Below, piece by piece: positions 11,464 to 13,518 of a stretch of DNA of 13,620 nucleotides. The DNA comes from Candidatus Parvarchaeota archaeon (GTDB lineage Archaea > Nanobdellota > Nanobdellia > Parvarchaeales > Parvarchaeaceae). Position 1 is the stretch's first letter. Each line of letters starts with the position of its first letter. The notes under the pieces were generated by a model. It ran no database searches. It was not told the origin of the DNA and was given only the letters and a program-made list of their open reading frames with translations. The position numbers and the translations under genes were made by a program. The stretch lies in NCBI GenBank assembly GCA_023488405.1, contig JAMDDW010000026.1, positions 1 to 13,620 on the forward strand, in the 5' to 3' direction.

Positions 11464-11535
11464 GCCTTGGTAGCTCAATGGCAGAGCATCTGCTTCGTAA
11501 GCAGGAGGTTGTGGGTTCGAAACCCACCCAAGGCT
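11464..11535 (+). tRNA. tRNA-Thr (anticodon CGT)
   Basis: A full cloverleaf folds by eye: acceptor GCCTTGG (11464-11470) with CCAAGGC (11528-11534); D stem GCTC/GAGC (11473-11476, 11484-11487); anticodon stem TCTGC/GCAGG (11489-11493, 11501-11505) around loop TTCGTAA; five-base variable loop; T stem GTGGG/CCCAC (11511-11515, 11523-11527) with loop TTCGAAA. The anticodon CGT (11496-11498) reads ACG, threonine. Base 73 is T, as expected for archaeal tRNA-Thr. CCA is not encoded and there is no intron. Confidence 0.96.
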
Positions 11536-12149: not shown

Positions 12150-12560
12150 ATGGGATCATATAAATACATACATGCAAATGAAATGGCATTGTACAAGAAC
12201 GATGAAAGAAAAAAGGAAATCTTGCAGGAGGTAAGAAATCAACCTATACTGCAAAGAATAGAAAGGCCGACAAAACTTGCAAAGGCCAAGACGATAGGGT
12301 ATAAGGCAAAACAAGGATACATAATCGTAAGAGTCAGAGTAAGCAAAGGAGATTTTAGGAGACCAAGAGCAAACCATGCAAGAAGACCGAGTAAAAGCGG
12401 ATTATACTATAAACTATCGATAAGCAAGGAGGGCATAGCAAGGAACAGAGCTTTAAAAGTGTACAAAAACATGAAGGTCATCGGATCTTATTTCATAATA
12501 GAAGACGGAAAGAACAAGTGGTTTGAAGTAATAATGGTAGACAATAAAAAAGGTAAATAA
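12150..12560 (+). CDS. rpl15e: Large-subunit ribosomal protein L15e, C-terminally short
   Basis: L15e is a core protein of the archaeal and eukaryotic large ribosomal subunit that threads through 23S rRNA. The hallmark segments are present: MGSYKYIH at the start, RIERPTKLAKAKTIGYKAKQ (36-55), IVRVRVSKGDFRRPR and the basic ARRPSKSG, then GSYFIIEDGKNKWFEVIMVD (111-130). Family members are normally near 190-200 residues; this one stops at 136, directly after the MVD strand, so the basic tail of roughly 50 residues that normally continues is missing. The stop is followed by non-coding AT-rich sequence without the missing part in another frame. The gene looks intact and expressed otherwise. The shortening could be lineage-specific reduction or could come from rearrangement linked to the transposon relic 50-65 bp downstream. 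Confidence 0.93.
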   Translation: MGSYKYIHANEMALYKNDERKKEILQEVRNQPILQRIERPTKLAKAKTIGYKAKQGYIIVRVRVSKGDFRRPRANHARRPSKSGLYYKLSISKEGIARNRALKVYKNMKVIGSYFIIEDGKNKWFEVIMVDNKKGK

Positions 12561-12610
12561 AATATTTGTTAAAACTACTTTATCTTTTGTAGAACATTGT
12601 GGATTTTTTT

Positions 12611-12933
12611 CTATGTTAATCTTTTGTGACATCCCCCCTGAATGAATTCATGGGCTTCCGGTTCCTGCTTCACAGACACGACTTGCATGCAGTTTCCTGC
12701 AGTGTATAGGTCGGATTCTCGACGGGCTTGACTTCCCCTCCGTCCGAGGGTAACTTCTTTTTGAGAAATATTTGATTGATATTTCGACTAACCTTTTTAA
12801 GATTTTACGTTTAGTCAACAACCTTTTATCTTAAGCATCGGTCTATTCTTTTTCAGGATAGACTTCATTATTGATGCTGTTGATACGCCTTCCCTCCCTT
12901 TATAGTTTTCCGTTCTTTCAGTTCGCTTTCATC
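12611..12933 (-). pseudogene. tnpB: Decayed, internally deleted tnpB
   Basis: TnpB is the RNA-guided nuclease of IS200/IS605 elements. One minus-strand frame from 12933 reads DESELKERKTIKGGKAYQQH, then six stop codons interleaved with KRIDRCLR and KVVD, then an open part (12804-12673) with SRNINQIFLKKKLPSD and GEVKPVENPTYTLQETAC. The EVKPVE...PT block just before the end is typical of archaeal TnpB C-termini. After a stop at 12672-12670 the expected tail SVKQEPEAHEFIQGGCH continues in another frame (from 12679 to a TAG at 12611), showing a frameshift. The RuvC-like core and most of the zinc finger are absent, so no nuclease is made. The start of the original gene is not identifiable. Confidence 0.7.
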
Positions 12934-12976
12934 CCACCTCTAAAGAGCATGGGTTTTCCCGCTCACCTTTGATAAA
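12626..12976 (-). mobile_element. IS200/IS605-family element relic (TnpB type)
   Basis: On the minus strand this 350-bp block keeps features of both ends of an IS200/IS605-type element. The right end has GAAGCCCATGAATTCA, then ATTCAGGGGGGATGTCAC, whose CCC-a-TGAAT/ATTCA-GGG hairpin (12636-12654) and terminal GTCAC are typical of these elements. The left end has GGGAAAACCCATG and a second imperfect hairpin, CCCAtgCTC-TTTA-GAGgTGGG (12933-12953), followed by GATGAAAGCGAAC. Between them is a decayed tnpB. There is no tnpA, so it cannot move alone. It could be a collapsed full element or a short non-autonomous derivative. The left boundary (about 12976) is estimated, because no target duplication is expected in this family. 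Confidence 0.7.
12736..12883 (-). repeat. Chain of perfect short inverted repeats in the transposon relic
   Basis: Perfect stems follow each other: CCCTC/GAGGG (12736-12740, 12746-12750), GAAATAT/ATATTTC (12765-12771, 12779-12785), GACTAA/TTAGTC (12786-12791, 12811-12816), and a nested stem of three helices: 12815-12820 with 12878-12883, 12835-12839 with 12873-12877, 12841-12846 with 12858-12863. A further GAAA-tetraloop hairpin (TGCAG/CTGCA, minus strand) lies at 12688-12701, closed by an outer ACAC/GTGT pairing. The pairing is strand-neutral, so RNA from either strand could fold. Confidence 0.5.
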
Positions 12977-13008: not shown

Positions 13009-13518
13009 ATGGATGTTGAACAATTTCTTTTCTTTGAAGTGCTTGTCGGAATAATCATAGCTCTTACAATGTTTTTCCTTTTCTACAATAATTATTCATC
13101 AATTTTTCCTATAGGCTGTGATTCTTCAACCGCTCTGCTGCAAAACCAGTTTACCAGCGCAGAATATGGGTATGCAAACAGAATGGAGGGCACTTCATTA
13201 TTCAGATGTTATGATGAGAATGCATGTTATAATGCGGCTACCGCACAGCAGACCTGCATAAGACATTGGTGTTACTATCAACTTTGGACAAACGGCCAGG
13301 GAAGCGAATCAGCAGTACAGAACTGCATAACAAGTCCTCCTGCTAACATAACCAATTCGTGTAGTACCATTTCTCCCACAAATACTGCTGATCTGTTCAG
13401 CTGCTCTGAAAGCACTATAGTTGCAAACAACGCTACAGATATACAAAATTGCGCAATAAACGTTACGGCGTGTATATCAGGAGATGGACCTTATTGTCCA
13501 GCATGTATAGGCCAATGA
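13009..13518 (+). CDS. Cysteine-rich membrane-anchored exported protein
   Basis: I do not recognise the family. The N-terminus MDVEQFLFFEVLVGIIIAL leads into a hydrophobic helix (about 6-27) that acts as a signal anchor; the Q-to-E spacing is one residue too long for a standard class III signal. The outer domain of about 140 residues has 12 cysteines, an even number consistent with up to six disulfides, and ends in YCPACIGQ with a CxxC pair. It is rich in N, T and S with several glycosylation sequons. Disulfide stabilisation outside the cell is the likely purpose of the cysteines, but metal binding is possible. The next gene starts one base after its stop, so the two probably form an operon continuing beyond the window. 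Confidence 0.75.
   Translation: MDVEQFLFFEVLVGIIIALTMFFLFYNNYSSIFPIGCDSSTALLQNQFTSAEYGYANRMEGTSLFRCYDENACYNAATAQQTCIRHWCYYQLWTNGQGSESAVQNCITSPPANITNSCSTISPTNTADLFSCSESTIVANNATDIQNCAINVTACISGDGPYCPACIGQ

Follow-up and report, generated by a model that had tools for sequence, protein, structure and literature searches.

The window, a stretch of 13,620 nucleotides that forms one contig (C13) of a Candidatus Parvarchaeota assembly (G000; 419,610 bases, 71% complete), carries on its minus strand a 346-bp non-autonomous element of the IS200/IS605 type (12626..12971). The element lies between the gene for ribosomal protein L15e (12150-12560; Pfam E 1.4e-35) and an unnamed ORF (13009-13518), both of which are encoded on the plus strand. 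Read on the minus strand, the locus consists of the motif TTTAT (12972..12976), followed by the element from 12971 to 12626, with GTCAC as its final bases. We set these boundaries according to related copies, which start after TTTAT and finish with GTCAC, and to the empty sites found in five relatives (G001, G004, G018, G025, G026), chosen by a match in the flank of the element. The L15e gene and the ORF are present with no element between them in all five relatives fetched: the alignments of the flank end around window positions 12547-12588 and resume at 12966-12974. TTTAT is found at the insertion place in four of these empty sites, and TTTGT in that of G018 (alignment read by eye). Based on paired copies and empty sites, TTTAT is the target or transposon-adjacent motif, and since it occurs a single time at the window locus, the insertion took place without target duplication. 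The locus is 100% identical in a second genome (G002) across all 451 bases of our search query, so that no mobility within the species is apparent for the window copy itself.

Both ends of the element carry near-terminal hairpins related to those of tnpB-bearing elements. The left end (12899..12971, minus strand) displays the hairpin CCCATGCTCTTTAGAGGTGGG at 12953-12933 and is 91% identical to a left end from G021, and the right end (12626..12667, minus strand) displays CCCATGAATTCATTCAGGG at 12654-12636 before the closing bases GTCAC. When the window was scanned by nhmmer with end models rebuilt without the window copy, 12976-12905 scored as a left end (E 3.2e-18) and 12667-12626 as a right end (E 1.1e-13), and the models found nothing further below E 0.6 anywhere in the window. 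Allowing up to three mismatches, a left-end pattern has a single match in the window, against none in 200 shuffles. The sequence-only reading, which had described a TnpB-type relic with both hairpin ends kept, was thus correct as to the ends. It was also right that a C-terminal signature of TnpB is kept, but this signature is short: residues 370-391 of the TnpB of G001 (430 residues) align by tblastn to 12780-12712 (23 positions, 65% identity, E 4e-5), delimiting a remnant of 23 codons (INQIFLKKKLPSDGGEVKPVENP; 12712..12780, minus strand). The similarity to TnpB, whose lack the sequence-only reading had named as a refutation, is thus seen in the translated search, although Pfam gave no match up to E 1 for the 57-aa ORF at 12648-12821. 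The RuvC catalytic core is absent, in agreement with the earlier reading; beyond the 23 C-terminal codons no nuclease sequence was found in the element, and stop codons interrupt all three minus-strand frames across it.

Approximately 110 bp in the middle of the element (roughly 12781-12893) are not recognisable as tnpB. The search for their source led to weakly matching sites in G023 and G027, which had no end-model score below E 0.08, and likewise to a site in G028; part of this middle reappears in a short element of G014 (contig C23, L115). An AT-rich box, GAAAACTATAAAG (12898..12910, minus strand), lies where the left end meets the interior. It resembles the archaeal BRE/TATA consensus and is presumably a promoter. 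Of the 33 paired elements that exceed 60 bp, 29 match a loose motif for such a box, a count made without chance control and in which the box matched is not always the same one. A promoter scan with a sigma-70-type model, unsuited to an archaeon, returned no minus-strand site.

The element belongs to a family that is distributed among close relatives of the host. A search of 55 genomes with the 451-base query, flanks included, at a threshold of E 0.01 gave matches in 20, all inside the host's family of 32 genomes, and no match to the element query in the 23 other genomes of the host's class. One of the 20 (G018) matched by its flank only and three (G023, G027, G028) only at E 0.006-0.009; the element itself is thus matched in 16 of the 55 genomes. 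Similar right ends also occur in named records, which are MAGs of Nanoarchaeota and Candidatus Parvarchaeota. Starting from 76 left-end and 64 right-end matches in loci brought in by similarity, after a genome search that scored at most 12 candidates per genome, we counted at least 42 paired ends, a lower bound that leaves out ends unpaired within 1.9 kb and left ends beginning after model position 8; exact duplicates were dropped, and one insertion in two genomes may count twice. By length (TTTAT included), ten of these 42 measure 1175-1417 bp, two 557 bp, 21 between 147 and 397 bp, and nine 52-54 bp. The ten long ones are tnpB elements with frames of 246-445 codons, some of them broken, and the two of 557 bp carry pieces of tnpB. 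The copies start with TTTAT (29), CTTAT (7), ATTAT (3) or other pentamers (3), and 39 of the 42 close with GTCAC.

Within the window's own genome, the left-end search gave two clear copies, namely the window element and a 1409-bp tnpB element with related ends on contig C24, whose tnpB is broken and falls into three pieces when aligned to an intact TnpB. Related ends, for which the sequence-only reading had proposed to search, are therefore present both in the host genome and among the relatives with element matches. We looked for a parent element among the 12 loci with window-type sequence: at E 0.01, 11 were without any TnpB match and one (G002, contig C7) had TnpB fragments only, so that a whole TnpB lies alongside none of them.

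The shortened form is also found at other sites. Window-type interiors occur in G022 on contigs C14, C1, C7, C23 and C18, and partially on contig C7 of G002; the C18 copy is interrupted by the contig end and the C23 copy lacks the outer left end. The copies on C1, C7 and C23 have an inverted left-end piece in common. Flanks of 400 bp, taken from five copies (G002 at the window locus; G022 on C14, C1, C7 and C23), showed no mutual similarity at E 1e-3. The presence of window-type copies at five places of G022, three of which carry the common rearrangement, establishes that the shortened form itself multiplied in this relative. The label of relic was hence misleading, and the block is a real element, one of many copies, with a middle that is not recognisable as tnpB.

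These copies bear on the possibility that the window element arose by decay in place, in which case a full tnpB element would have inserted once and lost its middle by deletion, leaving an inert remnant. Such a course would be consistent with a window copy devoid of its own mobility and with changes of interior at a fixed site: a single insertion site, with flanks alike on both sides, holds 374 bp in G002 (contig C50, L122) and 213 bp in G026 (contig C28, L107), which indicates that interiors also change in place. We consider it quite improbable for the window element, both ends of which are sharp and whose shortened structure recurs in G022 between unrelated flanks. Window-type right-end fragments were also seen on contig C7 of G002 (L022) and contig C2 of G001 (L028), at what looks by eye to be one and the same place in the two genomes; their upstream contents differ, and three changes fall within the first 18 flank bases.

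The element is very probably a short, non-autonomous, PATE-like derivative of IS200/IS605 that would be moved in trans by a Y1 TnpA. As expected of PATEs, it has no transposase gene and is repeated at unrelated sites. The proposal of the sequence-only reading that it relies on a TnpA or TnpB encoded elsewhere is well supported by the related ends on contig C24 of the same genome and in relatives, and by the short copies at unrelated sites of a related genome. From the kind of ends, we infer both the Y1 TnpA acting in trans and a single-strand mechanism. A TnpB-only (IS1341-type) transposon of the Ca. Parvarchaeota lineage would have shed the greater part of its interior and retained both ends together with an extended 3' segment; the shortened form would then have been moved as single-stranded DNA by the trans-acting Y1 TnpA, which would recognise both hairpins and insert the element beside TTTAT without target duplication.

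The Pfam family Y1_Tnp was detected in three of the 32 family genomes (G007, G008, G029) and not in the genomes with short forms (G000, G002, G014, G021, G022), which is why the mobiliser is deduced from the kind of ends. Some of the short-form genomes are 71-89% complete, and G022 is 98% complete; the mobilising enzyme may have been lost, may have been missed in incomplete assemblies, or may be a different one. A comparable situation is described for Haloquadratum (PMC3119063): the tnpA genes are pseudogenes in one strain, yet the elements differ between strains. A lineage poor in TnpA and rich in such copies is well suited to a study of how TnpB-only elements are mobilised.

The element adds to a known kind, that of PATE-like IS605 derivatives. 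The PATEs of Haloquadratum walsbyi comprise HqIRS46, HqIRS71 and the terminal-only ISHwa23, and include terminal-only forms of 52 bp and one with a C-terminal segment (PMC3119063). Like these, the short parvarchaeal elements are palindrome-associated, IS605-derived and gene-less, a likeness drawn from the published descriptions. Unlike them, they belong to a Ca. Parvarchaeota lineage, and the window type adds an apparently structured interior and a TATA-like box. TTTAT is the motif reported for TnpB-only IS200/IS605 elements of Sulfolobus islandicus (PMC10640517), where it stands at the left junction as it does in the window. In these elements the tnpB 3' end and the right end form a putative omega-RNA gene (PMC10640517), as they may in ours; the window copy differs in having no tnpB beyond the 23 codons.

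The position of this 3' segment raises the question of whether the element is instead a solo guide-RNA locus, as the sequence-only reading had suggested. A promoter in the left end would drive a structured non-coding RNA through the right end into the flank; this RNA would load a TnpB made elsewhere, which would cut the empty site and so aid retention of the element. We regard this as unlikely, with evidence on both sides. The 15 nucleotides proposed as the guide (12625-12611) are the flank of the insertion site, and their role, as that of the whole would-be guide of an omega RNA (12606..12625, minus strand), is assigned by position only. By its location, spanning the 3' end of tnpB and the right end, the segment resembles the omega RNA or sotRNA of archaeal tnpB genes (PMC12558985); it differs in having no whole tnpB in cis, no known transcript and no Rfam match at gathering level. 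The terms MITE, non-autonomous, in trans and standalone are absent from PMC12558985. Among the titles retrieved on solo, trans-acting or non-autonomous TnpB or IS605 elements, none names a guide-RNA-only TnpB element, and we make no claim as to whether such an element has been published.

Codon usage gives the first argument for an RNA encoded in this region. We took five long tnpB frames from the family (400-446 codons), leaving out three truncated ones, and measured synonymous codon identity at shared residues. Two of the five are incomplete: near its start, the G022 frame splits into two pieces in the alignment to the reference, and the G014 frame (400 codons) starts about 30 codons late. 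Identity is 58.9% over codons 30-287 (1167/1980) and reaches 84.8% over codons 379-410 (217/256), the highest region of the gene; every 32-codon window that attains this value begins at codon 375-389. Codons 288-347 are also raised (340/427, 79.6%), codons 348-378 are not (120/192, 62.5%), and the part from codon 411 to the end stands at 74.2% (92/124). A first run, in which truncated genes from a single genome stood alongside longer ones and may have inflated the 3' identity, was discarded and redone, and the 3' rise remained. This rise agrees with the prediction of an omega-RNA scaffold that overlaps the tnpB 3' end, which in this genus shows the signature of RNA-level constraint, as judged from the aligned codons.

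The window element retains codons 370-391, including the CCCTCGGACGGAGGG hairpin (12736..12750, minus strand), which is common to the tnpB 3' end in the genus and is a putative piece of the omega-RNA scaffold, as suggested by alignments and by the codon constraint. Part of the constrained stretch is therefore kept, but the window type has no recognisable counterpart of the most constrained codons, those beyond about 391, and carries a shorter sequence of its own there up to the right end. Moreover, the motif of the scaffold hairpin is unmatched in 12 of the 21 mid-size copies and in all nine copies of 52-54 bp, implying that spread does not need this hairpin. As to a nuclease that such a guide might serve, the window's genome encodes on contig C31 a second TnpB, different in type, whose frame spans 402 codons; its ends differ, with no right-end match and a left end matched only at E 0.008. 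The matching tnpB of the genome is the broken one in three pieces, and the genome, as noted above, yielded no Y1 TnpA.

A second argument concerns the predicted structure of the interior. In the alignment of seven window-type copies, pairing holds in 97.9% of the 287 cells, and compensation, with a change on both sides, is seen at 6 of the 44 pairs; the six unpaired cells fall in helix 2 (four, in the window and contig C7 of G002) and in the right-end helix (two). Four of five measures (cells paired, pairs and cells doubly changed, covariation score) lie above all 500 shuffles, the fifth, pair types, is equalled by 171 of 500, and the six slid versions score lower on every measure. These statistics concern copies of about two lineages, with a structure derived from the same alignment, and related sequences devoid of structure can also exceed such shuffles. 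The near-terminal hairpin would be kept for DNA transposition anyway. Folded alone, the window RNA is only modestly more stable than its shuffled versions (z -1.9; equalled by 7 of 200), and the copy on contig C14 of G022 gives z -3.96 (1 of 200).

Individual helices, all on the minus strand, comprise hairpin 1 of the non-coding interior (12841..12863; RNAalifold), for which five of the seven copies have letters, all of them paired, with one compensatory pair, and an interior hairpin (12753..12769) paired in all seven copies, again with one compensatory pair. A GCAG-GAAA-CTGC hairpin (12689..12700) was recognised by eye outside the RNAalifold consensus; it reads GCGG/CCGC in two G022 copies and GCGG/CTGC on contig C7 of G002, and three G022 copies have lost its 5' side. 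A long-range helix of three pairs (RNAalifold columns 183-185 with 353-355) was omitted from the pair count as implausible, and a pseudoknot between a GGACA loop and a downstream UGUCC was dropped by eye, as not every copy could form it. At gathering level, Rfam detected in the window only a tRNA (11464-11535) and nothing at the element, and up to E 1 it detected tRNAs only in six related loci.

On contigs C14 (19420-19661, L123) and C19 (L048), G022 also holds elements of a second class without ORFs, about 240 bp long, with the ends of the family around a different, compact interior. Several G022 contigs terminate inside this class, as expected of a repeat. Two diverged relatives of about 240 bp in G014 (C17, L150; C12, L151) have more divergent left ends. 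The interior of the class contains a CTCTC-GGACA-GAGAG hairpin that resembles the tnpB 3' hairpin, a point in favour of a guide RNA; in the consensus fold of four copies, 4 of 39 pairs are changed on both sides, and one copy folded alone is no more stable than its shuffles (z -0.39; 61 of 200 as good), which argues against it.

It is rather doubtful, though conceivable, that these are parvarchaeal families of gene-less transposons that carry a guide-RNA gene as cargo (left-end promoter, structured scaffold and a guide supplied by the insertion site) and hitchhike on TnpA for movement and on a TnpB encoded elsewhere for retention. If so, two of these families would be represented by the window type and by the second class, and each new insertion would add a guide against its own empty site. 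Should some copies keep a working scaffold, transposons would provide one TnpB with a natural collection of guides acting in trans, which would bear on the origin of separate guide loci from single-guide elements. Under the preferred reading of PATE-like elements moved in trans, the gene-less IS605 derivatives reveal the minimal end requirement for movement, of about 49 bp with a single hairpin.

The smallest members are nine elements of 52-54 bp from four genomes: L154-L157 and L161 (G021), L047 and L124 (G022), L158 (G002) and L160 (G014). In the six viewed as sequence, a left and a right junction surround a single hairpin, and five of the nine are located at different places of G021. A viral collection was scanned for one left-end and one right-end string, which gave three and zero contigs, respectively. 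Two of the three look like chance matches and were set aside; the third (L185, IMGVR_UViG_3300021255_004386) holds a distant tnpB element: its left end is similar (E 1e-14), and its TnpB is 44% identical to the parvarchaeal one over 372 aligned residues. Finally, a weak TnpB-domain match below the cut-off was seen in the window's genome on contig C15 (10688-10843, L003), inside a 315-aa frame that we presume to be a transcription factor B with a zinc ribbon.
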